IMG/VR virus record: IMGVR_UViG_3300001460_000051
Span: 1 to 42,944 of that record
Direction: 5' to 3' (one strand)
From: a virus
Length of the DNA: 42,944 nt
Shown: positions 16,608 through 33,523 of the stretch, piece by piece
Numbering within the stretch: position 1 is the stretch's first letter
Layout of the letters: the number at the start of each line of letters is the position of its first letter
Position numbers and translations under genes: made by a program
The notes under the pieces: model-generated
Seen by the model: only the letters and a program-made list of their open reading frames with translations
Database searches by the model: none
What the model was told of the DNA's origin: nothing

Positions 16608-18128
16608 TTATTCTGGTTGTTGAGGAATAAGTGTTATTTCAATTGTTCCCCCAACTGATAAACCAGCACCATTAAATGCATGTCCAGTACCATCATTAAC
16701 TAATCTTACTGAAATTCCTGCTGAAGTTCCGTTATTTGTTAAATAACTAACATCACCACCACCAAATAAGTTAGGTGTTTGATTAACTAGTGTAATTGAT
16801 CCTGATGGATTTGTTCCTATATTCATAGCTCCTCCACCAACACCCAAACAATGGAAACCAAATACAGCTGTTGATTGTAATTGAGCAATTCTACTTGATG
16901 GAGTAGCAAAATCTTCTCCTCTTTCTGCACATAATAAATTTACATTCATCTGGCAAGCATAATTCGTATCGTTTCTTAGCTTAGGTATTGGGTGAAGCCC
17001 AGCATCAGCTAATGGGGTATATAAAAATATAGCTTCACTTGTACTTGTAACATTTTTATTTTGAATAAAAAACTTAGCTGTTTGAATTGCATTTACAACA
17101 TTGTTTTCTAAATCTAAACCATTACCAGCTGCAAAGTAACTTCCTGTTGGTGTAGTTATAGCACTTTGAGCATAAACACTACCACTATAAACATGAAGAT
17201 CATTTGAAGATGAAACTGCTACTTTTGCATTAGCTGCTGATGTGCCACCTACAGCAAATGCAACCCTAGCTGCTCCACTTGTTGATTCATTAGATACATA
17301 AGTATCACCTGCAAAATCAAATCTTGTTTGAGTTGCAGATCTAAAAGCTGTATTAGTACCATCATGAACTTCTAAACCTGTAGATGTTGAAGATCCTGAT
17401 ATATATGCCCCTTCATTAGTAGTTGCAAATCTTCTTACATTATTATAAAATAATTGAACATCAGTATTTTCATTTGCAATTAAAAGAGTTTCATCATTAT
17501 TCATATTTTTTAATATGAATTGATCTGTTTGCCATTGTGTTTTAGCTCCATCCGCACTTTGTGTAAAGAAAAATGTATCACCATCATTATACATTGCAGC
17601 TGATCCTAAAGCACCTACAGCATCATTAAAGTGTAAACTACCTGTTATTTTTGTTGTGTTTGATGTTGACTTTCCTAATTCTGCATTGTTTAATGCGAAA
17701 AAATTTCCTGTAAGAATATCCCCAGATGCCGTTATATTATTTCTTACCTCAAGATTTCCAACAATTATTGCACTTTCAGATGCTGTTATACTACTTACAT
17801 CAATTGAAGTAGCATCTACTTCTCCTGTTACTATAATTCCATTAGTGCTTGTAGCTAATTTAGTAGCTTCATTATATTTTAATATTACATTTCCACCTCC
17901 ACCAGCTGATGCTGTAAAGTTAGATTGTGAAATTGCTGATACATTATCTGTCAATACTAAATCACCTCCTAAAGATACTTTAGAATTGGCTGTAGTTGAT
18001 AATGAACCTGATATTGTTATAGCGTAATCACCTACTCCTGTAAATGCATTAAAAGATTGAGATACTTGAGATGCTAAAACAGGTTGCCCTGTTGTTACAC
18101 CAGCATTTGAAAATGTTAATTTAGACAT
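16608..18128 (-). CDS. Fibre-like virion protein
   Basis: This 506-aa protein looks like a phage fibre or other surface protein. It is Ser/Thr/Asn/Gly-rich and beta-strand-rich, with many repeats of the fibre-type pattern I-T-G-S/A-S-G-x-L (ITISGSLST, ITASGDILTG, ITGSLHFND). The N-terminal segment (FSNAGVTTGQPVLASQVSQSFNAFTG) resembles the attachment segment of baseplate-bound fibres. The C-terminal 150 residues contain a distinct Cys-containing region (CQMNVNLLCAERGED, FHCLGVGGGAMN) that may be the receptor-facing tip. It has its own late-type motif at 18146 and is followed by the small coiled-coil gene. Exact role not known. Confidence 0.68.
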   Translation of the reverse strand: MSKLTFSNAGVTTGQPVLASQVSQSFNAFTGVGDYAITISGSLSTTANSKVSLGGDLVLTDNVSAISQSNFTASAGGGGNVILKYNEATKLATSTNGIIVTGEVDATSIDVSSITASESAIIVGNLEVRNNITASGDILTGNFFALNNAELGKSTSNTTKITGSLHFNDAVGALGSAAMYNDGDTFFFTQSADGAKTQWQTDQFILKNMNNDETLLIANENTDVQLFYNNVRRFATTNEGAYISGSSTSTGLEVHDGTNTAFRSATQTRFDFAGDTYVSNESTSGAARVAFAVGGTSAANAKVAVSSSNDLHVYSGSVYAQSAITTPTGSYFAAGNGLDLENNVVNAIQTAKFFIQNKNVTSTSEAIFLYTPLADAGLHPIPKLRNDTNYACQMNVNLLCAERGEDFATPSSRIAQLQSTAVFGFHCLGVGGGAMNIGTNPSGSITLVNQTPNLFGGGDVSYLTNNGTSAGISVRLVNDGTGHAFNGAGLSVGGTIEITLIPQQPE

Positions 18129-18145: not shown

Positions 18146-18155
18146 TTATAAATAT
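18146..18155 (-). promoter_or_regulatory. Late promoter motif before the 506-aa fibre-like gene
   Basis: The coding strand reads ATATTTATAA, ending 17 nt before the ATG and overlapping the stop codon of the upstream glycosyltransferase gene by one base. The leader downstream is TAAAATAAAAGAATAGT. Confidence 0.65.
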
Positions 18156-19357
18156 CAATAATTTTTTTCTAATTGACGGTTTGTAGCATCTATTACTATT
18201 TGAGATTCAATTGATGTAGTACACTCATAATGTCTATCTGTGTCTTTATGTTCGGGGCACCACTCCCAATCACCCGCGTCTAATTGAACTTTATTAAAAC
18301 ATCCCCCACATTTATCTTTTGGTGCTTCTACCCTTTCACAATCTTCAAACTCACTATAAGCTTCACTAAACCCTGATATCATAACAACAGGTGTTCCTAA
18401 TCCCCATGCTAACCAACTTAACCCACTTCCTATACCAATAAAAGCTTTAGCATTCATTATATCATTAGCTCTTTCACTTAATGGATAATCTCCTGTTTTA
18501 TCAATTACACCTTTTAAAGTACCACCTAATTTAGAATCATGCCATTTATCACCTAAAGGTTCTTGAGTAATCATTACTACTTTATAACCTTTATTATTTA
18601 AATGATCTATTACATCTTGCCAACCACCTTTACGATTCCAATACTTAGCATGAGATGAACCATGAGGTGCTATACAAACATAATCACTATCAATTGTAGA
18701 TCCTGTATTTTTAAATGATAATTTAGGTTTAATTTCTTTATTATCTAATCCTAATATATCGTATGAAGCTCCTTGTAATGGGATTTTTCTAAAATCTAAA
18801 GGATTTCTATTATAGTTAATTTCTTTATCTTTATTATAATGCCAACCAACCTCATACATAGCATATAAATCAAATATTTCTGTAGCTGGTTCTACAAATT
18901 CTATTTCTGGGTATGTGCTTTCAAACCATTTATTATGAAATGTAGAGACTACCAATTTACATTTATGTTTTTTTCTAAATTCTTCAGCATATGGAAACCA
19001 TGCTAAAGTATCACCTATTGCTTTAGAAGCAAAATGAATATACACTTTTTTATCTTCAGCATTATAAAAATCTTCAAAAACTAATTTATTATTTTCTTTA
19101 TCTGTTACTTGAATTTTATAATCAACAAAATATTCTTTTCCAGTTTTACACCACATATTATTAGTTATATCTGATTCGTATACAACTGTATTATTTTTTT
19201 GATCTATAAACTTTACATTATAATTTTTTTTATTTTTACCTAAAACTTCAAATTTACCCCCCATAATATAATTTGATGAAAAGGTATTTTTAGGTAATTT
19301 AAATTTAACTGGTTTTTTAATTAAATTATTATATTCTTTTATTAGAATTTCTTTCAT
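18155..19357 (-). CDS. TibC/BAHT-like protein O-heptosyltransferase
   Basis: This 400-aa protein matches the bacterial autotransporter heptosyltransferase (BAHT, TibC/AAH-type) architecture in order and length. An N-terminal beta-rich domain (1-100) is followed by a GT-B core with AIGDTLAWFPYAEEFRKKHKC (113-133) and APHGSSHAKYWNRKGGWQ (230-247). The donor-site segment is FIGIGSGLSWLAWGLGTPVVM (306-326). At the C-terminus, four cysteines (350, 353, 367, 379; C-x2-C-x13-C-x11-C) fit the metal-binding finger of TibC. Known members transfer heptose to many serines of repetitive surface proteins. Here the gene closes a glycan cassette a few kb from a Ser-rich collagen-like fibre, the obvious candidate acceptor (inference). 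The first 4 nt overlap the upstream gene. The sugar transferred is unknown. Confidence 0.85.
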   Translation of the reverse strand: MKEILIKEYNNLIKKPVKFKLPKNTFSSNYIMGGKFEVLGKNKKNYNVKFIDQKNNTVVYESDITNNMWCKTGKEYFVDYKIQVTDKENNKLVFEDFYNAEDKKVYIHFASKAIGDTLAWFPYAEEFRKKHKCKLVVSTFHNKWFESTYPEIEFVEPATEIFDLYAMYEVGWHYNKDKEINYNRNPLDFRKIPLQGASYDILGLDNKEIKPKLSFKNTGSTIDSDYVCIAPHGSSHAKYWNRKGGWQDVIDHLNNKGYKVVMITQEPLGDKWHDSKLGGTLKGVIDKTGDYPLSERANDIMNAKAFIGIGSGLSWLAWGLGTPVVMISGFSEAYSEFEDCERVEAPKDKCGGCFNKVQLDAGDWEWCPEHKDTDRHYECTTSIESQIVIDATNRQLEKNY

Positions 19358-20064
19358 ATATTAAATTCTTTATTAAATTGTTTTTTATATCTTAAATCAT
19401 CTATAAAAGCTTGACCATAAGGTAAAATATTTCCTCTATCAAAATTATGTATTTGTAAATACCACCTCATATTATAATGGTATTGATTGTGAGGTTTTAA
19501 TTTTGCCCTTTCAGTACCTAATATTTCATTGTTCCAAGGATCTTCATTTGGAAACATAATAGATTTTAAATATTCTACATTCCAAATAGCAGCATTATGA
19601 GTTAATAACCACACAGAATCTTGTTGCATTTTAAGTACTCTATTACCTCCAATAAATTTATCTGATGTTTCAAAATCATACCCCCACCAATGTAATTTTT
19701 CATGTATACGAAGACAATCTGCTTGTTCATTATCCATAAATTTAATAAATTCAGGCATAATATTTTTAATGGATCTTTCAGGCCACATATCATCACACAT
19801 TAATAAAACATATTTTGTTTTTATTTTATCTAAAGCATAAATTAACTTATTTGAAAAATCATATTTTGTATAATCTGGTTTGTTAATACTTAAAGGAATA
19901 ATATTTTTATATTCATAATTAAATTTATTATTATCTGATATAACATATATGTTTAAGTCTAGTCCACTAAGAATTTCCCAACTTAATCCTAAACCTTCCC
20001 AACAATTAGAATAACTATCACAAGTTGGAATTAAAACTGATATTTTATTTTTTAAATTCATCAT
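19354..20064 (-). CDS. Glycosyltransferase, GT-A/GT2-like
   Basis: This 236-aa protein has the outline of a GT-A-fold transferase. An N-terminal strand (KISVLIPTCDSY, residues 7-18) is followed by an acidic, metal/nucleotide-sugar-type motif in YVLLMCDDMWPERS (residues about 85-98) and an aromatic acceptor region (KLHWWGYDF). Length is near that of small phage and capsule-type glycosyltransferases. It overlaps the GT4 gene upstream by 20 nt and the BAHT-like gene downstream by 4 nt, so the three are translationally coupled. It probably adds a sugar to a glycan built by the same cassette. Donor and acceptor cannot be read from the sequence, and the GT family number is uncertain. Confidence 0.7.
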   Translation of the reverse strand: MMNLKNKISVLIPTCDSYSNCWEGLGLSWEILSGLDLNIYVISDNNKFNYEYKNIIPLSINKPDYTKYDFSNKLIYALDKIKTKYVLLMCDDMWPERSIKNIMPEFIKFMDNEQADCLRIHEKLHWWGYDFETSDKFIGGNRVLKMQQDSVWLLTHNAAIWNVEYLKSIMFPNEDPWNNEILGTERAKLKPHNQYHYNMRWYLQIHNFDRGNILPYGQAFIDDLRYKKQFNKEFNI

Positions 20065-20998
20065 ATATTTTAAATAATTCTTTTGTTCTGTTTAACCATG
20101 ATAATTTCTCTGAAGTTTCTAAACATTGTCTTCTATAAGAATTCCAGTTTTTTAGAATATCTTTTAATCCTCTATCCATTTCAAAAATATCACGAGGTGC
20201 TCTCCAACATCCATTTAAATCAACTTCCATTTCCCAATCAGCTATAACAGGTAAACCTGCCGACATAGCTTCTAACATTGTTAAATTAGGATGGCCTGCC
20301 TCCAACATTGTGGGGTGGACAAAAATATCATGAGAATGAAATAAATCTAATAATTCTGTGTTTGGTGTATCAAATACTAAATTTAAATTAGGATAATTTA
20401 ACATCCAAATATGACCATTAAAGAAATTTTTATTATTAGAAGGTCCTGCTATTGTAATTTCTAAATTATTTATCATAGCTAAACCTAATCCATATTCAAA
20501 TCCTTTTCTATCAAATGTTCTATCACCCCCTAACCCATTATTAGCTAACATTAATAATTTTGGGTTTGATGGTTTTTTATTAAATTTAGGATAAAACTCA
20601 TTTACATTAACACCATGTGAAAAATAAACACATTTAGGATGGTTATCAAAATATTTAACTAACCAATTAGCTGGCATTAATGATATTAAAGATCCTTCTA
20701 TTGCTTTTAAATTTTCTCTATATACATGAGAATCTTTACCATAATGTAAAACATGATGATCATGTAGTTGGTAAATATATGGTATACCTCTTTCTTGTAA
20801 ACCAATAGCTAAATTAGCTACATGACAATGTACAATATCAAAATCATCTAATTTAATATCAGATGCCATTTTATGAGTTGAATCATGACCTAATATAGTT
20901 TGATTTACTTCAAATTCCCAAATAATTTTTTCTATCGCTCCCCAATTTTTAGGGGGGATTGATAACCCACAAGCTGGGTCTACATGACATATTTTCAT
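20045..20998 (-). CDS. Glycosyltransferase family 4-type (GT-B)
   Basis: This 317-aa protein has GT4 features. The N-terminal Rossmann half contains DIVHCHVANLAIGLQ and YIYQLHDHHVL. The C-terminal half carries the diagnostic donor-binding segment HDIFVHPTMLEAGHPNLTMLEAMSAGLPVIAD (about 225-256), with the E-x7-E arrangement. It probably extends the sugar chain attached by another member of the cassette. Its start overlaps the FkbM gene end by 4 nt and its end overlaps the GT-A-like gene by 20 nt. No signal peptide or membrane helix is visible, so it is cytoplasmic. Donor and acceptor are unknown. Confidence 0.85.
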   Translation of the reverse strand: MKICHVDPACGLSIPPKNWGAIEKIIWEFEVNQTILGHDSTHKMASDIKLDDFDIVHCHVANLAIGLQERGIPYIYQLHDHHVLHYGKDSHVYRENLKAIEGSLISLMPANWLVKYFDNHPKCVYFSHGVNVNEFYPKFNKKPSNPKLLMLANNGLGGDRTFDRKGFEYGLGLAMINNLEITIAGPSNNKNFFNGHIWMLNYPNLNLVFDTPNTELLDLFHSHDIFVHPTMLEAGHPNLTMLEAMSAGLPVIADWEMEVDLNGCWRAPRDIFEMDRGLKDILKNWNSYRRQCLETSEKLSWLNRTKELFKIYDEFKK

Positions 20999-21876
20999 TT
21001 TAAAAATGCTATATTATTATATCCTTTTTTATCATCTACCCAAATTTTATACCCATTTGAATGTAAAAAGTCTTCTACTTTTATTTCATTAATATCATTA
21101 ACTCTTTCATAAATAATAACTTTAGGCTTTGAAATTTTGTTAAAATCTAAAGCCATTATTAACTCATCATCTATACCTTCTACATCAATATGTAACCAAT
21201 CTAAATTATTAAATTTATTTTCAACTAAAAGTTCATTAATACCTATAGATTCTTTTTCAACTTCTTGTATATTAGAATAAAAATTTAATAAATGTTCTTT
21301 ATCTACAGAATTAGTATGACCTTCACCATCTAAAGCTTCATAAAATTTTACTTTACCTCCTTTTGGAGTAATTAATTTATTTAATAAAGTAACATTTTGA
21401 TCATTATAATTTTGTTTTAATTTTAAAAATGGATCAGTAGATGCTTCAACTAATAATACTTTAGAAAAAAGTTGACGGTGATATAAATGAACCCATTCTC
21501 CTGTTGACCCATCATTTGTTCCTATAGCAACACCTTTAGTATTTAAATTTGAAGCACACCATAAATCAAATGCTATTTCTGATTGAGTTCCATGTTCTAA
21601 ACTATTCCATTGAACTTTACCAACTTCAACTCCTTTAGATGTAGATATTTTTAAAGTACAACCATCAAACCAATTATGCCAACATTTTCTACCTGGGATT
21701 AAATCAACTTCATATAATTTATTATCACCATGAGTTCTAAAAATTTCAACTTTTAAAGGTAAATTATCTTCTGGAAAAAAGAATTTGATATTATCTTTTA
21801 CTGCTACTTCTATTGTAGTTGATGAGCGCAATTGTGCTTGTGCACCTGTAACCTTTATGTCAATAAATTTATTCAT
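20995..21876 (-). CDS. FkbM-family SAM-dependent methyltransferase
   Basis: This 293-aa protein carries an FkbM-type methyltransferase domain in its C-terminal two thirds. Motif I is GVAIGTNDGSTGEW (115-128), the ribose-binding acid follows in LLVEAS (141-146), and LDWLHIDVEGIDDELIMAL (225-243) contains the family's IDVEG signature. The first 110 residues form a separate beta-rich domain of unknown role. Members commonly O-methylate sugars in natural products and surface glycans. In this cassette, flanked by glycosyltransferases with overlapping ends (1 nt and 4 nt), capping or decorating a phage-made glycan is the likely role (inference). Confidence 0.85.
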   Translation of the reverse strand: MNKFIDIKVTGAQAQLRSSTTIEVAVKDNIKFFFPEDNLPLKVEIFRTHGDNKLYEVDLIPGRKCWHNWFDGCTLKISTSKGVEVGKVQWNSLEHGTQSEIAFDLWCASNLNTKGVAIGTNDGSTGEWVHLYHRQLFSKVLLVEASTDPFLKLKQNYNDQNVTLLNKLITPKGGKVKFYEALDGEGHTNSVDKEHLLNFYSNIQEVEKESIGINELLVENKFNNLDWLHIDVEGIDDELIMALDFNKISKPKVIIYERVNDINEIKVEDFLHSNGYKIWVDDKKGYNNIAFLK

Positions 21877-24560
21877 TATATTTTTAAATCTCCTTTAATA
21901 TTAGTTTTACTAATTTTTTTATCTATTAAACTGTACCCCTTTGCTTGAAATACTAAAGGTTCTTTAAAAAATCCTTTGGGTTCATCTCTAAAGTTGTTAG
22001 TTACCCATAAATCAAAAGCATCCCATTTTGAATTATTAATCCTATCGTGTACATTATCAATTTTATTACCTCTAATTATATAAGCATGAGCATCTGTAAA
22101 CATGCCAGCATCAATATGAGTTTCATATTCATGAAATATTTCATAATTGTGGGCAAAACTAAAGAATGTATAATCTTTTTCTTTTGAAATTTTTATTGCT
22201 TCATTTAATTTATTAACAAATTCATTATGGTCTTTTAATAATAAAGCATCACATTCAAAAAATAAATAAACAGTATTATTATCTTTAGGACATGATAATA
22301 TAGCATCTGTATGTGCTTTAAAACACCCATAATGTCCAGGAGCTAATTTATAATAACCAGGTTCCATCTGAACATCATTTGGTCTATTACAATTTTGTGT
22401 TGGTGGTAAATCAGTATAAGGAGTATTAATTACAGATGTATATTCTATATTATCGTATTCTCCTAGTTTGCTGATAGATTCAATTGAACGTATCTCTCTT
22501 TCTTCTTCTGGGTGTGTTAATAAATGTACGATTTTAATTTTTGGATAAGATTCATAATTAATTCTATCACCTTTCCAATTAAACATACCATTATTAGGCA
22601 TTATATTTAAAAAATAATCTTTATTTAAATTAAATTTATGATATTTTACACTTTCTCCTGTATTAGTATCTTTTACATCAAATATGACTGTAATGTTGTC
22701 ATTTAAATCATATTTTACTAAATCCCAAAATTGATATTTACCCCTAACTTCTAATGTTCTATCAATAATAAGTTCTTTATTTTTTTCTACAGTATAATGA
22801 ATATTTTTACTTTCTTTAGCATTTGATATTGTTATCCAAGGACAAAAATGATTCTCTACATCTGTAGGTAGTATAGTATAATATTCAACCATCGAATAAT
22901 CTTCAAACTCAAAATATTTTTCAGCATCAGATTCAAATTTTTCTTTAGGTTCAATATAATTATTAGTATTATTTTTAAATATATGATAATATAAATTTTC
23001 TATACCATTAGATTCAGCACCATGCTTACTCATAAGATTATTATATTGATCTTCTGTTTCTATAAAATGACAATTATTTAAAATTGCTTCTGGTCTTGCC
23101 GCAAAAAAGTATGTATAATAACATTTACCTTCTTGTGCTTTAAATTCACCAAAGAAAGTATCATGTTTATTTAATTTTTTAGATATATAATCTATGTAAC
23201 TACTATCTTTAAGAATATAATCAAAATTAATATAATATAATTTTTTAATATCTAACCCTTTAGCAAATGTAGCTGGGTTGTAAAATGAAGTATAACAAGC
23301 AGGACCATGGTATCTATCATTGTCTTCACCTCTTAAATTAACATAAGTATCATATAAATTATTACTTGCTGTATATCCAGAGTAAAATGTATGTTTAGTT
23401 AATAAATTATTTTTTTCATAAAATACATAATCAACCATATCTTGTAATTCTTTAGGTACAGGACAATGTGCTGATATTATAATTTTTCTATTGCTATTTT
23501 TTCTTAATGATTTAATACACTCTATTGTAGTATCTACTACTGCTTGAGTTTTAGGGTAAGTACAAATTACATATGCTTCTTCTTCTTCTTTAAGAATATT
23601 AATATCATTAAAGTGTTCTTTAATCCTTAAAATATTTTTATCAAAACTATTAAAATCTAAATAATTAATAGAATCATAACTATCAAAATAATTTTGATAA
23701 ACCTCTAAATTATATAATAGTTGTGGAATTTGATATGATAAAGCTTCTCTAATAACTAAGGGCATTGTTTCTTTATCATTTTTACTTCCTCTAGATGTAA
23801 ATAAAAATAAATCCATTGATTGGTAAAAATTATCTACATCTGTTCTTTCATTCCACCATGTAACATTATTTGGTTTATCTTTCATTAATGGCTCCCAATA
23901 CCATTTAAAATTTTCTGCTTGATTTCCTACACTATGAAACTCATACTCAGGTAAAGCTCTAGCATATTCAAAAAATTCTTTTTGATTTTTACGTGATGTG
24001 AATAAACCAATATGTAAAATATGTTTTTTAGTAGGATCTAAATTTAAGCGTTTTAAAGCAATTTCTCTATCAGGTCTAGGAATATATTCAATAGGATATT
24101 CAACTAGTATTTTAGGTATATCTATGTTCTTATATTGCTCTATTTGCCAATTAGATACAAACATAAATTTATCTGGAAAATATAATTTATTATCAGTATT
24201 CATTGAAGAATCATGTGATGTTTCAACTAAAAAATAATTTCTATTTACATTATATAATTTTTGAGCTATATCATCATCCATAAAATATTCAGGAATTTCT
24301 TCTAAATGAATAATATCAGGATTAATTTTTCGAATTATAGTAAATAATTTACTTTTATCTTCATAAAGTGTATAAAAATTTTTCTTTGGAAGTAATTTTT
24401 GAATTTTATTTTTAGTTACTACTAGTTTACCTCCAGTACAGTCTGTCCATTCAATTAAATAAATTTCAAATTCACCTTTTAAAAGTTCTATCTTTTTTGT
24501 TAAATATTGGGGAAGTCCCCCTGTAGATAGGTGGGGTGCAATAAATAAGAGTTTTTGCAT
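21876..24560 (-). CDS. Multidomain glycosyltransferase fusion
   Basis: This 894-aa protein appears to fuse several transferase domains. Residues 1-330 form a GT4/GT-B domain (LLFIAPHLSTGGLPQYL, HILHIGLFTSRKNQKEFFEYA, MPLVIREALSYQIPQLLYN). Residues about 335-560 form a second nucleotide-sugar-type domain beginning AYVICTYPKTQAVVDTTIECI, with the pattern of a GT-A fold. The last 200 residues (IKIVHLLTHPEEEREIRSIE, APGHYGCFKAHTDAILS, TVYLFFECDALLL) look like a third GT25-like domain. A single protein could therefore make several consecutive linkages. It opens the glycan operon, 60 nt downstream of a late-type motif, and its stop overlaps the start of the FkbM gene. The domain limits and the third family are my estimates. 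Confidence 0.75.
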   Translation of the reverse strand: MQKLLFIAPHLSTGGLPQYLTKKIELLKGEFEIYLIEWTDCTGGKLVVTKNKIQKLLPKKNFYTLYEDKSKLFTIIRKINPDIIHLEEIPEYFMDDDIAQKLYNVNRNYFLVETSHDSSMNTDNKLYFPDKFMFVSNWQIEQYKNIDIPKILVEYPIEYIPRPDREIALKRLNLDPTKKHILHIGLFTSRKNQKEFFEYARALPEYEFHSVGNQAENFKWYWEPLMKDKPNNVTWWNERTDVDNFYQSMDLFLFTSRGSKNDKETMPLVIREALSYQIPQLLYNLEVYQNYFDSYDSINYLDFNSFDKNILRIKEHFNDINILKEEEEAYVICTYPKTQAVVDTTIECIKSLRKNSNRKIIISAHCPVPKELQDMVDYVFYEKNNLLTKHTFYSGYTASNNLYDTYVNLRGEDNDRYHGPACYTSFYNPATFAKGLDIKKLYYINFDYILKDSSYIDYISKKLNKHDTFFGEFKAQEGKCYYTYFFAARPEAILNNCHFIETEDQYNNLMSKHGAESNGIENLYYHIFKNNTNNYIEPKEKFESDAEKYFEFEDYSMVEYYTILPTDVENHFCPWITISNAKESKNIHYTVEKNKELIIDRTLEVRGKYQFWDLVKYDLNDNITVIFDVKDTNTGESVKYHKFNLNKDYFLNIMPNNGMFNWKGDRINYESYPKIKIVHLLTHPEEEREIRSIESISKLGEYDNIEYTSVINTPYTDLPPTQNCNRPNDVQMEPGYYKLAPGHYGCFKAHTDAILSCPKDNNTVYLFFECDALLLKDHNEFVNKLNEAIKISKEKDYTFFSFAHNYEIFHEYETHIDAGMFTDAHAYIIRGNKIDNVHDRINNSKWDAFDLWVTNNFRDEPKGFFKEPLVFQAKGYSLIDKKISKTNIKGDLKI

Positions 24561-24596
24561 GTAACTATTAATTTTATAAAACTATGTAATAATATA

Positions 24597-24615
24597 ATGA
24601 TAGTTTTGCTATCAT
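24597..24615 (-). other. Hairpin at the 5' end of the glycan operon leader
   Basis: The coding strand reads ATGATAGCAAAACTATCAT, a perfect 7-bp inverted repeat with a 5-nt loop, starting 5 nt after the late-type motif at 24621. If transcription starts a few bases from that motif, the mRNA would begin with this hairpin, which could protect its 5' end. No T-run follows, so it is a poor terminator for the upstream gene. Confidence 0.45.
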
Positions 24616-24630
24616 CCAAATTATAAATAT
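24616..24630 (-). promoter_or_regulatory. Late promoter motif before the glycan operon
   Basis: The coding strand contains ATATTTATAA at 24630-24621, followed directly by TTTGG. It lies 60 nt before the ATG of the multidomain glycosyltransferase, the longest leader in the window. The overlapping TATAATTTGG (24625-24616) also occurs, as TATARTTTGG, before the polymerase and SSB genes. Confidence 0.6.
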
Positions 24631-24634
24631 AATA

Positions 24635-25327
24635 TTATGAAACTCCTATTACGTTTGCGATATTAGCTGTTGCTACCCCTACAACGTTGCTTATTTTTGC
24701 TGCTGTAACAGTATTAACTTGATTGCCATAACCTGCATCCGCATGTGTTAATTGAATTTGAATTCTATTAGTTCCAGAAGTTAAAAAATTAACTCCTAGA
24801 TAAAAATCTTCTCCAGGTTCATCTTCATCAACATCTTTATCATTTCTAAAAACAACATTAAGATAATTAACATCATTTATATTTGAAACAGCTGTAGCAT
24901 TACAAGAAAAAGATCGCAATTGATTAGTCCCCCAATTTAACTCACCATAATCAGCTGATGAATATAAAGTTGAAGTTACGGCTGGAAAATCATCTGATGA
25001 CAATGTTGAGCCATTATTACCAAAAGCCGTACTTTTATACATTCTAATATTACCTCCATTAGTTCCGCTTGAATATACTTTAACTGTAGCCGCTGTAACT
25101 GTAGTGGTAACAGCACTTGTATCAAAATAAGCATAAGCTCGAGAAACAAAAAATTGACCACCTCCTCTACCTTCTACAAACCCTGCTCTAACACCTAATG
25201 AGTTTGAGGAGTTAGAAGAAACAGTTCCTGAATCCGCTGCTACTGCTTCATCCCACTCTTCGTTTTGAGCTTGAATAAATCCTCTTCCAGTAAGTCCTGT
25301 TGTTGCGTATATAGTAGTTGTTGCCAT
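24635..25327 (-). CDS. Small beta-sandwich surface protein, DNRLRE-like
   Basis: This 230-aa protein is Ser/Thr/Asn/Gly-rich and beta-strand-rich. The segment FVSRAYAYFDTSAVTTTVTAATVKVYSSG (residues about 61-89) and the following strand pattern resemble DNRLRE/carbohydrate-binding-module-like beta-sandwiches found in surface proteins, where a strand reads R-x-x-x-x-F-D-x-S. The C-terminus has two short repeats (ISNVVGVATA and IANVIGVS). It is the last gene of the fibre operon, immediately after the GAMT-like methyltransferase (stop and start adjacent). A virion decoration, fibre tip or receptor-binding role fits but is not shown. Confidence 0.6.
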   Translation of the reverse strand: MATTTIYATTGLTGRGFIQAQNEEWDEAVAADSGTVSSNSSNSLGVRAGFVEGRGGGQFFVSRAYAYFDTSAVTTTVTAATVKVYSSGTNGGNIRMYKSTAFGNNGSTLSSDDFPAVTSTLYSSADYGELNWGTNQLRSFSCNATAVSNINDVNYLNVVFRNDKDVDEDEPGEDFYLGVNFLTSGTNRIQIQLTHADAGYGNQVNTVTAAKISNVVGVATANIANVIGVS

Positions 25328-25891
25328 TTAAAACTGTTTTTTGGGCAAATAATATTGTGTGTGGTTAAAATATGTGTTTGATGGAGGAGTTATATTGTGG
25401 ATATCATATGTTACCTCAGGTATATTATAATAATTATCTGATCCTGTCATTGAATTCCACCAAGTAGCTTTTCCTCCTACTTTTATTAATGATGATAATG
25501 AAGATGAAAAATATTTCATATTCTTATCTCCATAAGTATCCATAAATAAACCATCATAAGTACTTAAAGTATCTTTTACACCATACCAATCACCTTCTAC
25601 TATAGTTACATTAGATTTATCAGCAGCCCATGCTTGAGCTTTTGGAATCATATCTGGGTGGTTTTCTATAATAGTATGTGAATTAATTGTATGTGATTGA
25701 ATATAATTAGCTGATATACCCATTCCAAATCCAATTTCAAGTATATCACCTCCTCCTTCACATATATAAGCTGCTGAAGCTGACATTAGAGGATTTTCCC
25801 AATCCATCATAACTTCAAATTCATTATTTTCTACGTCAGCAAATATTATTTTATCTTCACTAAATGTTAAACTTTGAGATATATAAGACAT
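25328..25891 (-). CDS. GAMT/RMT2-like guanidino N-methyltransferase
   Basis: This 187-aa protein is a class I SAM methyltransferase that closely tracks guanidinoacetate N-methyltransferase (GAMT) and the related RMT2 arginine methyltransferase. VMMDWENPLM (27-36) corresponds to the GAMT block reading ERWETPYM, whose Glu contacts the guanidino group. LEIGFGMGIS (51-60) is motif I, IIEN (74-77) holds the ribose-binding acid, and GLFMDTYGD (114-122) corresponds to the block reading ILYDTY with its catalytic Asp. So both acidic residues that bind the guanidino substrate (here Glu32 and Asp118) appear conserved. The protein is shorter at the C-terminus than GAMT (about 236 aa). It lies between the collagen-like fibre gene (3-nt gap) and a small surface protein. 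The substrate could be a small guanidino compound or arginine side chains of a virion protein. Confidence 0.75.
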   Translation of the reverse strand: MSYISQSLTFSEDKIIFADVENNEFEVMMDWENPLMSASAAYICEGGGDILEIGFGMGISANYIQSHTINSHTIIENHPDMIPKAQAWAADKSNVTIVEGDWYGVKDTLSTYDGLFMDTYGDKNMKYFSSSLSSLIKVGGKATWWNSMTGSDNYYNIPEVTYDIHNITPPSNTYFNHTQYYLPKKQF

Positions 25892-25894
25892 ATT

Positions 25895-28800
25895 TTATGA
25901 ATTTAATACATATGTTTTATCTGGATCAAACCAAATTTGACCTGCTACATCAGTTACTTGTCCTATTATTCTTACATAATCACCAGCTGATGTTGGAGCT
26001 GTTGCTGTTGGGATACCGTTATCACCTACATATAAAGTATCACCTGTACCTAATTCTCCAAAATTTTCTTCGGCAAATACTATACCTCTAACAAACATAC
26101 CATTAGTAGAAGCACTAGCACCCATAGCAATTGCTAATGTTCCTGTTGCTTGGTTAGAAGAATCTTTATCTGCTGTTCTCCATATACCATCTTGTCCTAA
26201 ACAATATATGAGATATGTAGTATTATTAGCTAATTGTGATCCAAAAGTAACTTCATCACCACTAAAACCATCTGTATTTCTTTCTGGATATACTAAATTT
26301 CCTGCACCTAAATCAAGTGATAAAGTTCTACTTTGGTCTAATGTAGCACTTGCGGCACCTGCTATTCTTAAAGGAGCTGTAGTTGTTATTGTAATTGAAG
26401 ATCCTGAACCACCTATTACACCTGAAGATCCAGCTGTTCCTGAAGTACCTGAAGTACCTGATCCACCTGATCCACCTGGTGAACCTCCATTACCTGCTGA
26501 ACCATTTGATCCTGAAGTACCTGATACAGCACTTGCACCTGATCCACCAACTGCTCCATTATTACCAGTTGAACCACTTGATCCTGAAGTACCTGATCCT
26601 TTACTTGCTCCTGATCCACCTGTAGCACCTGTTGAACCTGAAGATCCTGTTGAACCTGAAGTACCTGATAGTCTACTTGCACCTGCTCCTCCTGTATTAC
26701 CATTAGATCCTGTTGAACCTGAAGATCCACTTGTTCCTGATCCTGCACTTTGACCTGATCCACCACCATTACCTGAAGAACCTGTTGTACCGTCTGCTCC
26801 TGAAGATCCTGCTGAACCTGCTGTTCCACTTAATCCTGAAGCACCTGCTACACCATTTGAACCTGAAGATCCACTTGTTCCTGATAATTTACTTGCTCCT
26901 GCTCCACCTGTATTACCACTAGATCCTGTTGAACCTGATGAACCTGAAGTACCTGATAGTCTACTTGCACCTGCTCCTCCTGTATTACCATTTGAACCAT
27001 TTGAACCTGAAGTACCTGATTGGCCACTTTGTGCTGAAGCACCATTATTACCTGTGTCACCACTTGAACCATTAGATCCTGAAGATCCACTTGTTCCTGA
27101 TAATCTACTTGCACCTGCTCCTCCTGTATTACCATTTGAACCATTTGTACCTGATGAACCTGAAGTATTTGATGATTTACTTGCACCTGCTCCACCTGTA
27201 GCACCTGTTGATCCATTTGTACCACTAGATCCTGAAGTATTTGAAGAGGCACTAGCACCAGTTGCACCTGTTATACCTGAAGATCCTGCTGAACCTGAAG
27301 ATCCTGATGTATTAGATGCTCTACTTGCACCTGCTGCTCCTGTGTTACCACTTGAACCATTTGATCCTGAAGTACCTGATTGGCCACTTTGTCCTGAATT
27401 ACCAGTATTACCTGTATTACCATTTGAACCATTTGAACCTGATGTTCCTGATTGACCACTTTGTGCTGAAGAACCTGTACCACCTGTGTTACCGTTTGAA
27501 CCTGTTGTTCCTGTTGAACCTGAAGTACCTGATCCTGCACTTTGACCTGATCCTCCAGAATCACCACTTGAACCTGTAGTTCCATCTGCTCCTGAAGATC
27601 CTGCTGAACCTGCTGTTCCACTTAATCCTGAAGCACCTGCATTACCATTTGAACCATTTGAACCATTAGTACCTGATTGTCCACTTTGACCACTAGCACC
27701 TGTAGCACCTGCTGCTCCATTTGAACCATTTGAACCTGAAGTTCCTGATTCACCACTTACGGCTGAAGCACCTGCATTACCCGCAACACCATTTGAACCA
27801 TTTGTACCACTAGATCCTGAAGTGTTTGATGATCTACTTGCTCCTGCTCCACCTGTAGCACCTGTTGAACCTGAAGTTCCTGTTGAACCTGAAGTTCCTG
27901 ATGCCCTACTTGCACCTGATCCTCCTGTATTACCATTTGAACCGTTTGAACCCGAAGATCCAGAAGTACCTGATCCTGCACTTTGACCTGATCCTCCAGA
28001 ATTACCACTTGAACCTGTAGTTCCATCTCCTCCTGAAGATCCTGCTGAACCTGCTGTTCCACTTAATCCTGAAGCACCTGCTACTCCATTTGAACCATTT
28101 GAACCATTAGTACCTGATTGTCCACTTTGACCGCCAGCACCTGTAGCACCTGCTGCTCCATTTGAACCATTTGAACCTGAAGTTCCTGATTCACCACTTA
28201 CTGCTGAAGCACCTGCTGCACCAGCGTTACCATTTGAACCATTTGTTCCACTAGATCCTGAAGTATTTGATGATTTACTTGCACCTGCCCCACCTGTAGC
28301 ACCTGTTGAACCTGAAGATCCTGTTGAACCTGAAGTACCTGATGCTCTACTTGCACCTGCTCCACCTGTGTTACCGTTTGAACCATTTGATCCTGATGAA
28401 CCTGAAGTTCCTGATCCTGCACTTTGACCTGATCCTCCAGAATTACCTGAAGAACCTGTTGTACCATCAGCACCTGAAGATCCTGCCGAACCTGCTGTTC
28501 CACTTAATCCTGAAGCACCTGCTACTCCACTTGAACCGTTTGAACCATTTGTTCCTGAACCACCACTTTGTCCTGAAGAACCTGAAGTACCACTACCTCC
28601 TGAATCACCTGACGAACCATTTGTTCCACTAGATCCTGAAGTATTTGAAGATGCACTTTGACCTGCTGCACCGGCATTACCAGTTGAACCATTTGATCCT
28701 GATGAACCACTTGTAGCTGATGATTTACTTGCACCTGCTGCACCAGTATTACCATTTGAACCATTTGAACCTGAAGATCCAGAAGTACCTGATCCTGCAC

Positions 28801-31800
28801 TTTGACCTGATCCACCAGCATTACCTGAAGAACCTGTTGTTCCATCTGCCCCACTTGATCCTGATGAACCTGCTGTTCCACTTAATCCTGAAGCTCCTGC
28901 TACACCTGAAGATCCGTTTGAACCATTTGTACCTGAACCACCACTTAAACCTGAAGATCCTGAAGTACCACTTCCACCTGAATCACCAGATGAGCCATTT
29001 GTTCCTGATGAACCACTAGTTGCAGAACCTGCACTTTGACCTGCATTACCTGTATTACCTGAGGAACCATTTGAACCTGAAGATCCTGATGTTTGACTAC
29101 TTCCTGATGACCCTGTTGTTCCTGATGCTTTACTTAAACCACTTGATCCCGTTGAACCCGAAGTTGCACTTTCCCCACTTGATCCTGTTGTTCCATCTGC
29201 ACCACTTTGTCCTGATGAACCAGCTGTTCCACTTAATCCTGAAGCACCTGCTACACCTGAAGATCCATTTGAACCGTTTGTACCTGAACCACCACTCTGT
29301 CCTGAAGAACCTGAAGTACCACTTCCACCTGAATCACCTGACGAACCATTTGTTCCTGAAGATCCTGAAGTGTTTGAAGATGCACTTTGACCAGCATTAC
29401 CTGTGTTACCTGAAGAACCGTTTGAACCTGAAGATCCTGATGTTTGACTACTTCCTGAAGATCCTACTGTTCCTGAACCTCCACTAGCACCTGAAGAACC
29501 AGTTGAACCTGAAGTTGCACTTTCCCCACTTGATCCTGTTGTTCCATCTGCACCACTTTGTCCTGATGAACCCGCAGTTCCACTTAATCCTGAAGCACCA
29601 TCTACTCCACTAGATCCAGCTGAACCATTTGTACCTGAACCACCACTTAAACCTGAAGAACCTGAAGTACCACTTCCACCCGAATCACCTGATGAACCAT
29701 TTGTACCACTAGATCCTGAAGTGTTTGAAGAAGCACTTTGACCCGCATTACCTGTGTTACCTGAAGATCCGTTTGAACCCGAAGATCCTGATGTTTTACT
29801 TTCACCTGAAGATCCTACTGTTCCTGAACCTCCACTGGCACCTGAAGAACCAGTTGAACCTGAAGTTGCACTTGCTCCTGAAGAACCTGTAGTTCCATCT
29901 CTTCCTGAAGAACCTGACGAACCTGCTGTTCCACTTAATCCTGAAGCACCTGCTACTCCACTAGATCCAGCTGAACCATTTGTACCTGATTGTCCACTTA
30001 AACCTGAAGATCCTGAAGTACCGCTTCCACCTGAATCACCAGATGAACCATTTGTTCCTGAAGATCCTGAAGTGTTTGAAGATGCACTTTGACCTGCTGC
30101 ACCCGTATTACCTGAAGATCCGTTTGAACCCGAAGATCCTGATGTTTTACTTTCACCTGATGAACCTACTGTACCACTGCCTCCACTGGCACCTGAAGAA
30201 CCAGTTGAACCTGAAGTTGCACTATCTCCTGAAGAACCAGTAGTACCATCTGCACCACTTGATCCTGATGAACCTGCAGTTCCACTATTACCTGAAGCTC
30301 CTGCTACACCTGAAGATCCAGCTGAACCATTTGTTCCTGATTGTCCACTTTGTCCTGAAGAACCTGAAGTACCGCTTCCACCTGAGTCACCTGATGAACC
30401 ATTTGTTCCTGAAGATCCTGAAGTATTTGAAGAAGCACTTTGACCTGCTGCACCTGTATTACCTGAAGATCCACTCGAACCTGATGACCCTGCTGTTCCT
30501 GATGCTTTACTTAAACCACTTGAACCTGCTGTTCCTGATGCTTTACTTAAACCACTTGATCCTGTTGAACCCGAAGTTGCACTTTCACCTGATGAACCTG
30601 TTGTCCCATCAGCTCCTGAAGAACCTGATGAACCTGCTGTTCCACTATTCCCTGCTACACCTGATACTCCACTAGATCCAGCTGAACCATTTGTACCAGA
30701 TTGTCCACTTAAACCTGAAGAACCTGATGTTCCACTACCTCCTGAATCACCTGAAGAACCATTTGTACCACTAGATCCTGAAGTATTTGAAGATGCACTT
30801 TGACCTGCTGCACCCGTATTACCTGAAGAACCGTTTGAACCCGAAGATCCTGATGTTTGACTACTTCCTGAAGATCCTACTGTTCCTGAACCACCACTGG
30901 CACCTGAAGAACCAGTTGAACCTGAAGTTGCACTATCTCCTGAAGAACCAGTAGTACCATCTGCGCCACTTGATCCTGATGAACCTGCTGTTCCACTTAA
31001 TCCTGAAGCAGCTGATACACCACTTGAACCTTGTGAACCTGAAGTTGCACTTGCTCCCGAAGAGCCTGCTGTTCCACTACCACCTGAATCACCTGATGAA
31101 CCTACAGAACCTGAAGTTCCTGAAGAACCTGAAGTTGCACTTGCTCCTGCTTCTCCTGCATTACCACTTGAACCATTTGAACCTGATGAACCAGCTGTTG
31201 CTGATGCACCTGAAGATCCTACTGTACCACTTCCACCACTTGAACCATTTGTACCTGAAGATCCAGAAGTTTTACTTTCTCCACTTGAACCTGTAGTACC
31301 ATCATCTCCTGAAGAACCTGATGAACCATTAGTTCCACTTAATCCTGAGACACCAGCTAAACCTGATGAACCTGAAGTTCCATTATCTCCTGAAGAACCA
31401 TTTGAACCACTTGTACCTGCTGAGCCTGAAGTTCCACTTCCTCCACTTTCTCCACTTGAGCCTGTTGTTCCATCAGCTCCTGAAGAACCTGATGAACCTG
31501 CTGTTGCTGCTAAACCTGATGCTCCTGCTACACCACTAGATCCCGTAGATCCTGAAGTTGCACTTGCTCCTGAAGATCCTACTGTTCCTGAACCACCACT
31601 TAAACCTGAAGATCCTGTAGATCCTGAAGTTGCACTTTCTCCACTTGAACCTGTTGTACCATCGTCTCCTGATGATCCAGAAGAGCCATTAGTACCACTT
31701 AAACCACTTACACCTGCAAGACCTGATGAACCTGAAGTACCATCATTACCTGAAGAACCGTTTGAACCACTTGTACCTGCTGAGCCTGAAGTATTTGCTT

Positions 31801-33523
31801 GACCTGATAAACCTGCTGAGCCTGTTGTTCCATCAGCTCCTGAAGAACCTGATGAACCTGCTGTTGCTGCTAAACCTGACGCTCCTGCCACACCACTTGA
31901 ACCTTGTGAACCTGATGTCGCGCTTAAACCACTTGAACCTACAGTACCACTACCACCTGATGAACCACTTGATCCTGCTGAACCTGAAGTTTTACTTTCT
32001 CCACTTGAACCCGTTGTACCATCATCTCCTGAAGAACCTGATGAACCATTAGTACCACTTAAACCACTTGCACCTGCAAGACCTGATGAACCATTAGTTC
32101 CATTTCCACCTGAAGATCCATTTGTACCTGAAGATCCTGAAGTTTTACTTTCACCTGAAGAACCCGTAGTTCCATCTGCACCTGATGATCCTGATGAACC
32201 TGCTGTTCCTGCTAAACCTGAAGCACCTGCTACTCCACTTGAACCTTGTGAACCTGAAGTTGCACTTAAACCACTTGAACCTACTGTTCCTGATTCACCT
32301 GAAGATCCACTTGTACCTGCTGAACCTGAAGTTTTACTTTCACCTGATGATCCTGTTGTTCCATCATCACCTGATGAACCTGATGAACCATTAGTTCCAC
32401 TTAATCCTGAAACACCAGCTAAACCTGATGAACCTGAAGTTCCATCTGCTCCTGAAGAACCTGCTGAACCTGTTGTCCCACTTGAACCTGAAGTTCCACT
32501 TGAACCCGAAGTTCCACTTTCTCCACTTGAACCTGTAGTACCATCGTCACCTGATGATCCTGAAGAACCATTAGTTCCACTTAAACCACTTACACCTGCA
32601 AGACCTGAAGATCCATTAGTACCAGTCGCTCCTGATGAACCTGATGAACCACTTGTTCCTGATACACCAGCAGAACCATTTGAACCTGCTACACCACTTG
32701 TACCTGATGATACTTCAACATATCCTATTTTACCAGATCCTGTTGCATATGTTAATACAAAAGGAAAATCTTGTATTGGTGCTGATTCTATTTTAAAATC
32801 ATCTCCTGTTCCACTTATATCAAAAGTACTACTACCTGTTACTGCAAACCCTCCAGCTACTCCTCCAACTGATCCTGTAATCTGAGCTGATCCTGAAAAT
32901 GGGAAACCTTGTCCACTACCTCCAGCACTATCACTTAATGTTCTACCAACATATTGATAAACTGAACATTTTACTGTATCACCTGTAGTAGGTGCTACAT
33001 CTGCATCCACAAACTGTATTACACCTGTTTTATAATCAAACTGATAATTTGATGGGTTTTGTTTAGTACCATTTACTCTAATAGTTACATTATAACCTGG
33101 TGTTAAATCTTCTGTATCAGCATTTGTTAAAGATGGATCCGAATATTTTGGAGAAATAAAACTACCTTGTTGACCTGCTTGTATAATTTGAGGTGTTACT
33201 GCAGTTGCTGGGTTATGTCCTGATGCTGATATTAAAAAGAATACTTCTGTTTTTGAACCATTAACAACATTTGAGGGTGTTAATTGTTCTTGATAATAAT
33301 ATCTTAATAAATTAGCACTACCAGATAACACATATTCTCCATTTTGAGTACTCCCTGAGTATGGTAAACCTGTAGTTGGGATAGCTGCTTGGTCAATATA
33401 AACTTCAGATGCATTGATGTCAAGTACACTTGTGAATGCTTCTTGAGCATCCGAACTTTGTTCCATCGTATACCTCCTACTCGCAAGTAACCTATTTGAT
33501 TTTTTAGTTTTATCTAATGCCAT
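25895..33523 (-). CDS. Giant collagen-like Gly-X-Y fibre protein
   Basis: This 2542-aa protein is probably an extended virion fibre. Residues 1-273 form a globular N-terminal domain, presumably the virion anchor (LDINASEVYIDQAAIPTTGL, YNVTIRVNGTKQNPSNYQF). Residues about 274-2376 are roughly 700 triplets with Gly in the first position and mostly Ser, Thr, Asn or Ala in the other two (GSS, GTS, GTN, GAS). I see only one proline, near the end. Single or paired non-Gly triplets (KTS, ATS, ASS-NTS, RAS-NTS) interrupt the pattern at recurring points. Residues 2377-2542 form a C-terminal tip or trimerisation domain (GDTLYVGDNGIPTATAP, AGQIWFDPDKTYVL), a pattern common at phage fibre ends. Neighbours are a fibre gene (8 nt upstream) and a methyltransferase. 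Ser/Thr density makes it a candidate glycosylation target. Confidence 0.88.
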   Translation of the reverse strand: MALDKTKKSNRLLASRRYTMEQSSDAQEAFTSVLDINASEVYIDQAAIPTTGLPYSGSTQNGEYVLSGSANLLRYYYQEQLTPSNVVNGSKTEVFFLISASGHNPATAVTPQIIQAGQQGSFISPKYSDPSLTNADTEDLTPGYNVTIRVNGTKQNPSNYQFDYKTGVIQFVDADVAPTTGDTVKCSVYQYVGRTLSDSAGGSGQGFPFSGSAQITGSVGGVAGGFAVTGSSTFDISGTGDDFKIESAPIQDFPFVLTYATGSGKIGYVEVSSGTSGVAGSNGSAGVSGTSGSSGSSGATGTNGSSGLAGVSGLSGTNGSSGSSGDDGTTGSSGESGTSGSSGTSGSSGTTGSAGSSGADGTSGSSGLAGVSGLSGTNGSSGSSGDDGTTGSSGESKTSGSAGTSGSSGESGTVGSSGLSATSGSQGSSGVAGASGLAGTAGSSGSSGADGTTGSSGESKTSGSSGTNGSSGGNGTNGSSGLAGASGLSGTNGSSGSSGDDGTTGSSGESKTSGSAGSSGSSGGSGTVGSSGLSATSGSQGSSGVAGASGLAATAGSSGSSGADGTTGSAGLSGQANTSGSAGTSGSNGSSGNDGTSGSSGLAGVSGLSGTNGSSGSSGDDGTTGSSGESATSGSTGSSGLSGGSGTVGSSGASATSGSTGSSGVAGASGLAATAGSSGSSGADGTTGSSGESGGSGTSGSAGTSGSNGSSGDNGTSGSSGLAGVSGLSGTNGSSGSSGDDGTTGSSGESKTSGSSGTNGSSGGSGTVGSSGASATAGSSGSNGSSGNAGEAGASATSGSSGTSGSVGSSGDSGGSGTAGSSGASATSGSQGSSGVSAASGLSGTAGSSGSSGADGTTGSSGDSATSGSTGSSGASGGSGTVGSSGSSQTSGSSGSNGSSGNTGAAGQSASSNTSGSSGTNGSSGDSGGSGTSGSSGLSGQSGTNGSAGSSGVSGVAGNSGTAGSSGSSGADGTTGSSGESATSGSTGSSGLSKASGTAGSSGLSKASGTAGSSGSSGSSGNTGAAGQSASSNTSGSSGTNGSSGDSGGSGTSGSSGQSGQSGTNGSAGSSGVAGASGNSGTAGSSGSSGADGTTGSSGDSATSGSTGSSGASGGSGTVGSSGESKTSGSSGSNGSSGNTGAAGQSASSNTSGSSGTNGSSGDSGGSGTSGSSGLSGQSGTNGSAGSSGVAGASGLSGTAGSSGSSGRDGTTGSSGASATSGSTGSSGASGGSGTVGSSGESKTSGSSGSNGSSGNTGNAGQSASSNTSGSSGTNGSSGDSGGSGTSGSSGLSGGSGTNGSAGSSGVDGASGLSGTAGSSGQSGADGTTGSSGESATSGSTGSSGASGGSGTVGSSGSSQTSGSSGSNGSSGNTGNAGQSASSNTSGSSGTNGSSGDSGGSGTSGSSGQSGGSGTNGSNGSSGVAGASGLSGTAGSSGQSGADGTTGSSGESATSGSTGSSGLSKASGTTGSSGSSQTSGSSGSNGSSGNTGNAGQSAGSATSGSSGTNGSSGDSGGSGTSGSSGLSGGSGTNGSNGSSGVAGASGLSGTAGSSGSSGADGTTGSSGNAGGSGQSAGSGTSGSSGSNGSNGNTGAAGASKSSATSGSSGSNGSTGNAGAAGQSASSNTSGSSGTNGSSGDSGGSGTSGSSGQSGGSGTNGSNGSSGVAGASGLSGTAGSAGSSGADGTTGSSGNSGGSGQSAGSGTSGSSGSNGSNGNTGGAGASRASGTSGSTGSSGSTGATGGAGASKSSNTSGSSGTNGSNGNAGAAGASAVSGESGTSGSNGSNGAAGATGAGGQSGQSGTNGSNGSNGVAGASGLSGTAGSAGSSGGDGTTGSSGNSGGSGQSAGSGTSGSSGSNGSNGNTGGSGASRASGTSGSTGTSGSTGATGGAGASRSSNTSGSSGTNGSNGVAGNAGASAVSGESGTSGSNGSNGAAGATGASGQSGQSGTNGSNGSNGNAGASGLSGTAGSAGSSGADGTTGSSGDSGGSGQSAGSGTSGSTGTTGSNGNTGGTGSSAQSGQSGTSGSNGSNGNTGNTGNSGQSGQSGTSGSNGSSGNTGAAGASRASNTSGSSGSAGSSGITGATGASASSNTSGSSGTNGSTGATGGAGASKSSNTSGSSGTNGSNGNTGGAGASRLSGTSGSSGSNGSSGDTGNNGASAQSGQSGTSGSNGSNGNTGGAGASRLSGTSGSSGSTGSSGNTGGAGASKLSGTSGSSGSNGVAGASGLSGTAGSAGSSGADGTTGSSGNGGGSGQSAGSGTSGSSGSTGSNGNTGGAGASRLSGTSGSTGSSGSTGATGGSGASKGSGTSGSSGSTGNNGAVGGSGASAVSGTSGSNGSAGNGGSPGGSGGSGTSGTSGTAGSSGVIGGSGSSITITTTAPLRIAGAASATLDQSRTLSLDLGAGNLVYPERNTDGFSGDEVTFGSQLANNTTYLIYCLGQDGIWRTADKDSSNQATGTLAIAMGASASTNGMFVRGIVFAEENFGELGTGDTLYVGDNGIPTATAPTSAGDYVRIIGQVTDVAGQIWFDPDKTYVLNS
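26396..32704 (-). repeat. 6.3-kb imperfect repeat array encoding collagen-like triplets
   Basis: This array encodes residues about 274-2376 of the collagen-like fibre as 9-nt Gly-X-Y units. Higher-order copies are visible: a block containing GLSGTAGSSGSSGADGTT recurs many times, with spacing of roughly 60 to 130 residues, each time with small substitutions. Synonymous codons vary between copies, so the DNA is less repetitive than the protein. This suggests an old, selected array, not a very recent expansion. Such arrays can change length by recombination. Confidence 0.9.

Follow-up and report, generated by a model that had tools for sequence, protein, structure and literature searches.

We find that a viral genome fragment encodes, next to a giant fibre made mostly of glycine, serine and threonine, a set of enzymes that probably hang sugars on that fibre, and that across dozens of related phages the key enzyme and this kind of fibre appear and disappear together. 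The window, i.e., the whole 42,944-nt stretch that we analysed (IMG/VR record IMGVR_UViG_3300001460_000051), is a fragment of a T4-like myovirus related to Flavobacterium phage immuto. A preliminary description, made from the sequence alone, proposed that this phage encodes its own O-glycosylation of a Ser/Thr-rich fibre. Our analysis confirms the underlying observation and supports this interpretation, although it remains a genetic inference since no glycan has been measured.

The fibre gene (25895-33523, minus strand) encodes a 2542-aa protein with three parts, an N-domain (aa 1-273; 32705-33523), a Gly-X-Y shaft (aa 274-2376; 26396-32704) and a C-terminal domain (aa 2377-2542; 25898-26395). 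The shaft consists of 701 triplets, all in register, of which 629 (90%) start with Gly and 72 lack it. It contains 911 Ser/Thr residues (688 Ser and 223 Thr) but only one Pro in 2103 residues, and it matches the Pfam Collagen family (1e-177). While the preliminary description stated that the fibre is mostly Gly-Ser-Ser and Gly-Thr-Ser, GSS is indeed the commonest triplet (162 of 701), but GTS occurs only 40 times and the rest is mixed. The C-terminal domain is 41% identical over 107 aa to the end of gp047, the annotated tail fibre of Flavobacterium phage immuto. A search of a phage database with the N-domain and a search of plasmids with the fibre found nothing, and the structural model of the N-domain was too poor (pLDDT 39) to be used for inferring an attachment site.

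As for the enzymes, which lie downstream on the same strand, the key one is a 400-aa protein (18155-19357, minus strand) that had been described as TibC/BAHT-like, which is an understatement. It is a true BAHT enzyme, matching the curated equivalog TIGR04414 (hepto_Aah_TibC) with 321 bits against a cut-off of 200, and matching TibC (4rap) with an E-value of 9e-64. Residues D116, K238, R296 and W315 are identical to the catalytic Asp and sugar-binding residues D110, K230, R286 and W305 of TibC, while S234 corresponds to T226. The four Cys of the iron finger are also conserved, C350, C353, C367 and C379 corresponding to C339, C342, C358 and C370 in TibC. These positions are invariant or nearly so in 39 phage homologues, the four Cys being invariant.

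The BAHT gene is accompanied by four other cassette genes, all on the minus strand. A 317-aa GT4 glycosyltransferase (20045-20998; Pfam PF00534, 4e-8) belongs to the core of the cassette, since it is syntenic with BAHT in most relatives and is fused to BAHT in one protein in the huge phage LR756501. An FkbM-family methyltransferase of 293 aa (20995-21876; PF05050, 3e-8; TIGR01444, 8.5e-9) is a variable member, present in only some relatives. Another variable member is a 236-aa GT-A-like glycosyltransferase (19354-20064), which has no Pfam match and only a below-cut-off match to TIGR04440 (5.7e-5). The last is an 894-aa glycosyltransferase (21876-24560), for which the proposed three-domain organisation holds. 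Its first domain (about aa 1-320) is GT4 by Pfam (Glycos_transf_1, 1e-10) and Foldseek (BshA/WbnH), and its middle part (about aa 321-665) is GT-A-like by model only. The C-terminal domain (about aa 666-894) appears to be of GT25 type, Pfam GT25 (PF01755) being matched by 9 of 20 homologues (best 2e-5) but not by the window's own copy, with a Foldseek match at low TM-score to the human collagen galactosyltransferase COLGALT1.

Next, we explored whether BAHT and the Ser/Thr-rich fibre occur together in related phages, because frequent loss of the cassette in relatives that keep the repeats would argue against the interpretation. Where the whole interval between neck gene and tail sheath is on the contig, 12 of 12 BAHT+ phages have a Ser/Thr-rich Gly-X-Y fibre, while 0 of 24 BAHT- phages do (Fisher 8e-10). 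In a larger set of 63, the figures are 37 of 37 against 0 of 26, with nine changes of each trait on the sheath+tube tree and gains and losses coinciding in 7 of 7 independent pairs on starred branches (p 0.016). Since this larger set included entries picked because collagen was visible, we made two counts to correct for that. The first is the strict complete-interval set above, which taken alone gives only four independent pairs (4 of 4, p 0.125). The second is a count without choosing on collagen, in which 33 of 34 BAHT-anchored loci with at least 3 kb upstream of the cassette show a collagen-like tract. Sister phages that lack BAHT have no collagen or a Gln/Pro-type one. For example, locus L261 has BAHT and a Ser/Thr shaft while its sister L273 has no BAHT and a Gln/Pro shaft, and locus L079 has both while its sister L218 has neither. 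Against this pairing, records G003 and G019 carry a distant BAHT with no collagen on the contig, but both run out before the fibre position, while G024 has a GTS tract cut off by the contig end and no BAHT in 268 kb.

The pairing recurs in independent lineages. In Microcystis phage Mel-JY01, BAHT forms the end of a 1226-aa protein annotated FkbM, flanked by Ser/Thr Gly-X-Y tracts. The same link is seen in another phage-like contig (L343) and in three gammaproteobacterial loci (L344, L345 and L378), in which Ser/Thr Gly-X-Y lipoproteins lie beside BAHT. Among 369 genomes of that class, only 16 hold the tract pattern, and these include both that have BAHT, on the same contig. Natural fusions, GT4-BAHT and GT-A+GT4+BAHT, also occur.

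Together, these findings suggest that the cassette glycosylates the phage's own fibre in the cytoplasm before virion assembly, a reading that we consider probable. In this scenario, the BAHT enzyme would transfer a first sugar to many Ser/Thr of the Gly-X-Y shaft, the GT4, GT25-containing and GT-A-like enzymes would extend it, and FkbM would methylate it. BAHT is the step tied to a Ser/Thr-rich shaft, and the other enzymes vary from phage to phage and so would set the identity of the glycan. That the fibre is the acceptor and is in the virion, as well as the order of steps, is inferred, as is the effect, which might be a stiff, hydrophilic, protease-resistant or antigenically variable shaft. 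One point against is that known BAHT substrates are beta-helical autotransporter passengers that a dodecamer recognises (PMC4358343), and a Gly-X-Y chain is a different shape. No strand-loop-strand repeat model matches the neighbouring proteins tested at E up to 1.

The identity of the sugar is undetermined. Heptose is the default for the family, but it is possible, though only tentatively proposed, that BAHT modifies the fibre with a different sugar from a host or phage nucleotide-sugar pool, which would be a variant of the above reading. No GmhA-like gene was found in near-complete relatives, and none of 41 genomes of the presumed host family passes the HldE-C cut-off, which makes the supply of ADP-heptose doubtful. 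Moreover, the stereoselectivity residue P300 of TibC is Gly here. However, the donor-site residues K230, R286 and W305 of TibC are conserved, and near relatives, as well as a contig identical to part of the window, encode an HldE-C-like nucleotidyltransferase (113 bits, cut-off 181).

We considered whether the enzymes might instead modify the host's O-antigen or surface to block superinfection, lying near the fibre only because both belong to a host-recognition island. This is the usual reading for glycosyltransferases in pelagimyophage host-recognition clusters (PMC7029224), the interval between neck genes and sheath is a variable fibre region, and some of the enzymes (GT4, GT25) resemble LPS enzymes. 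It is nevertheless unlikely, since BAHT is a protein O-glycosyltransferase family and not an LPS one (321 bits for TIGR04414 against 42 bits for RfaQ), and mere co-location does not predict that BAHT tracks the Ser/Thr content of the shaft. Indeed, L273 keeps glycosyltransferase-like and sulfotransferase-like genes but has no BAHT and a Gln/Pro shaft. The late-type motif carried by the cassette, detailed below, also speaks against it.

It is also improbable that the cassette mainly glycosylates another virion protein and that the shaft is a bystander. Candidates would be, for example, the neighbouring genes 33532-36501, 16608-18128 and 24635-25327, but their products have no known substrate repeat, the latter two have no detectable homologue in many BAHT+ relatives, and independent lineages and bacteria share only the Ser/Thr Gly-X-Y protein. 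Least likely is that fibre and cassette are associated by chance or carried together as one inherited block without functional linkage. Although related phages share synteny, changes of both traits coincide repeatedly on the tree, distant BAHT types (30-38% identical, in about 770-aa proteins) also sit by Ser/Thr shafts, and the pairing recurs in bacteria.

One of the closest known systems is the BAHT family itself (TibC/AAH) with the TibA/AIDA-I autotransporters (PMC4358343), in which the enzyme gene also lies beside a repetitive Ser-rich surface protein. Here, however, the enzyme is encoded by a phage, the presumed substrate is a Gly-X-Y fibre, and further glycosyltransferases and a methyltransferase accompany it. 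Mycobacteriophages also have sugars on their own virion proteins, but on the C-termini of capsid and tail-tube proteins (Freeman et al. 2023, as cited in PMC12619734), while the proposed acceptor in these T4-like phages is a collagen-like shaft. In Clostridioides difficile spores, the glycosyltransferase SgtA decorates the collagen-like surface glycoprotein BclA3 (PMC7157674). Virus-encoded glycosylation of collagen-like virion proteins is also known in giant viruses (PMC4691112, PMC9614988), apparently without BAHT, and the distant likeness of the GT25-type domain to COLGALT1 is at the level of fold only. We saw no report of BAHT enzymes in phages in the literature searched, which is not proof of absence. 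If correct, our reading would extend O-glycosylation by BAHT enzymes from bacterial adhesins to a widespread group of aquatic phages and to a new type of substrate. The presence of one enzyme follows the amino-acid make-up of the fibre, which points to the phage's own virion and not the host surface. It also offers a possible answer to how a collagen-like shaft with a single Pro could be stable, and a compact enzyme-substrate pair for making repetitive glycoproteins. About as likely as not, there is a general, undescribed class of BAHT enzymes whose substrates are Ser/Thr-rich Gly-X-Y proteins, spread among T4-like phages of (probably) flavobacteria, a cyanophage, a phage-like contig in an archaeal bin and gammaproteobacterial lipoproteins. 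In phages, such enzymes would build a mucin-like coat on the shaft, with exchangeable extension enzymes that diversify it.

The gene order and the motif in the preliminary description need correcting. The cassette does not follow the fibre directly, since two minus-strand genes lie between them. One encodes a methyltransferase-fold protein of 187 aa (25328-25891; Pfam Methyltransf_25, 5e-5, below cut-off), which is kept in some relatives including L099, a relative that has no cassette, and the other a structural-looking protein of 230 aa (24635-25327) without a family match. After the cassette and before the tail sheath lies a gene for a structural-looking protein of 506 aa (16608-18128, minus strand; phrog_13518, 1.9e-10, unknown function), which is variable in relatives. 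As for the late-type motif said to be carried by both units, TATAAATA itself is not enriched either in the window (12 seen, 10.5 expected) or in the intergenic gaps (1 seen, 0.7 expected). It is the coding-strand form TATTTATA that is enriched in gaps, with 8 seen in 721 bp and 0.5 expected. This motif stands 61 nt before the first gene of the cassette (24622-24629, minus strand) and also before gene 33532-36501 (36513-36520, minus strand). The latter gene (minus strand) encodes a 989-aa protein of no known family just upstream of the fibre, with a gap of 8 nt, and is probably co-transcribed with it, and the fibre seems to share its promoter.

The sequence is a single virus record of 42,944 bases. 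All its main genes read on the minus strand and describe a T4-like myovirus, with a major head protein, PhoH, a neck protein, tail sheath, tube, baseplate and a UvsX-like recombinase. By tail sheath, the nearest cultured phage is Flavobacterium phage immuto (52% identical over aligned pieces). Since close relatives of the BAHT gene turn up in contigs binned with a Flavobacteriales and a Winogradskyella genome, the host is likely, although not shown, to be flavobacterial.

As for the fiber, the gene at 25895-33523 encodes 2542 residues, of which residues 274-2376 form 701 triplets without a single slip of register. Of these triplets, 629 begin with Gly and 72 with Ala, Asn, Lys, Arg or Gln. This collagen-like shaft contains 688 Ser, 223 Thr and only one Pro, with Ser or Thr occupying 57% of X and 69% of Y positions in Gly triplets, and GSS being the commonest triplet (162). 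The C-terminal domain is 41% identical over 107 residues to the end of the annotated tail fiber gp047 of immuto, a phage that has no collagen-like tract in this region and no BAHT.

The sequence analysis of the neighboring enzymes strengthens the preliminary description, which had termed the 400-aa protein TibC/BAHT-like. This protein is a BAHT, matching TIGR04414 at 321 bits (for a cut-off of 200) and TibC with an E-value of 9e-64. D110, K230, R286, W305 and the four iron-finger Cys of TibC, whose roles have been described (PMC4358343), all have identical counterparts, while T226 is replaced by Ser and P300 by Gly. In 39 non-redundant phage homologues, these residues are invariant or nearly so. 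The 894-aa three-domain protein is a GT4 at its N-terminus. Its C-terminus is GT25-type in 9 of 20 homologues, although not in the window's own copy, and Foldseek lists human collagen galactosyltransferase COLGALT1 with an E-value of 3.7e-8, but the TM-scores of merely 0.17 and 0.24 make this a hint only. While the FkbM and GT4 proteins are ordinary members of their families, the GT-A-like protein shows only a weak match.

In contrast to the preliminary description, in which the cassette was transcribed directly after the fiber, two genes (24635-25327 and 25328-25891) separate the two. Moreover, the fiber gene has no promoter gap of its own, since it follows the gene at 33532-36501 (g33) after 8 bases. 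The motif enriched in the 721 bp of intergenic gaps is coding-strand TATTTATA, which was seen 8 times when 0.5 were expected. It stands before many late genes and is a likely late promoter element of this phage group. Since it precedes both the cassette and the g33-fiber unit, the earlier proposal that enzymes and fiber share late expression stands as a sequence-based inference.

Next, we explored whether the cassette and the fiber co-occur in related phages. In relatives, the order three-domain glycosyltransferase, GT4, BAHT, (g16, a structural-looking gene after the cassette), sheath, tube is conserved, with FkbM and the GT-A-like gene coming and going. We used tail-tube proteins to obtain loci chosen without regard to the cassette, searched whole records for collagen and BAHT, and fetched the intervals between homologues of the gene at 36539-37498 and the sheath. 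In the strict set of complete intervals, 12 of 12 BAHT+ phages have a Ser/Thr-rich shaft, and 0 of 24 BAHT- phages do, although this set by itself yields only 4 independent pairs (4 of 4, p 0.125). In a wider set, the table is 37/0 against 0/26, and a tree of sheath plus tube needs nine changes of each trait, always together, with 7 of 7 independent pairs on well-supported branches (p 0.016). As some BAHT+ rows of that wider set were chosen because collagen was visible, we also counted all BAHT-anchored loci with at least 3 kb upstream, of which 33 of 34 show a tract.

The BAHT- phages that still have a collagen-like fiber are informative since their fibers have another composition. In locus L273 (record G030) Ser/Thr is 0.21 with Gln at half of Y, while in L120 (record G035) Ser/Thr is 0.06 and Gln 0.81. 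The least clear case is L099 (record G034), a 33-triplet stump with Ser/Thr 0.53 and Gln 0.43 in Y, which was scored as not Ser/Thr-type because of its Gln. A further possible exception, which is unresolved, is a 97% Ser/Thr GTS tract cut off by the contig end (locus L291 9877-10740, at the end of the 268,739-base record G024) in a record without BAHT. L273 is sister to L261, which has BAHT and a shaft with Ser/Thr at 0.80. L273 also keeps a 2OG-Fe(II) oxygenase, as well as a sulfotransferase-like gene and a glycosyltransferase-like gene recognized by eye, so what tracks Ser/Thr is BAHT itself and not modification genes in general.

We then looked beyond this phage group. In Microcystis phage Mel-JY01, the BAHT domain ends a 1226-aa protein annotated FkbM and is flanked by Ser/Thr Gly-X-Y tracts. 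In this phage (PP395634.1 1-2298, locus L083), minus-strand "hypothetical proteins" are annotated antisense to a plus-strand Gly-X-Y tract that runs off the start of the record, so the fiber gene seems to have been missed. A phage-like contig in a Thermoplasmatales bin has a 790-aa protein with BAHT at its C-terminus and a 749-aa protein with five Ser/Thr Gly-X-Y segments. Huge phage LR756501 has a 725-aa protein joining GT4 and BAHT, beside a homologue of the three-domain enzyme, although only a short Gly-X-Y stretch lies nearby. In three gammaproteobacterial contigs (L344 2439-4128, L345 7805-11113 and L378 837-2422), BAHT stands beside small lipoproteins with Ser/Thr Gly-X-Y tails, which are a likely undescribed cellular substrate class. 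Among 369 genomes of that class of bacteria, only two pass the BAHT cut-off, and both are among the 16 that hold the DNA pattern of such a tract (Fisher 0.0018). However, one of the two is the genome whose BAHT led us to the class, and several of the other 14 are simple DNA repeats by eye. Virion glycosylation is known from mycobacteriophages (Freeman et al. 2023, cited in PMC12619734), BAHT enzymes from adhesins, and glycosylated collagen-like proteins from spores (PMC7157674), whereas we did not find the pairing of BAHT with Ser/Thr Gly-X-Y proteins, in phages and in bacteria, in the papers that we examined.

In the mechanism that we infer, BAHT starts glycans on Ser/Thr of the shaft, while the other enzymes extend and methylate them; effects on stability, protection or adsorption are conjecture. 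The donor is unresolved. Near relatives and a contig identical to part of the window encode an HldE-C-like nucleotidyltransferase (L299 7404-7811; G465:C1:623-1024), at 113 bits for a cut-off of 181, but no GmhA-like gene was found, and none of 41 genomes in the presumed host family passes the HldE-C cut-off. The fiber region of relatives also encodes a sulfotransferase and up to four 2OG-Fe(II) oxygenases (L298 6346-10547; L326 7228-7818), which are possible further fiber-modifying enzymes. Finally, one phage (L295 335-14861) has three successive collagen-like fiber genes of different composition, which are Ser/Thr-type, GPQGPI-type and GPQGPR-type.
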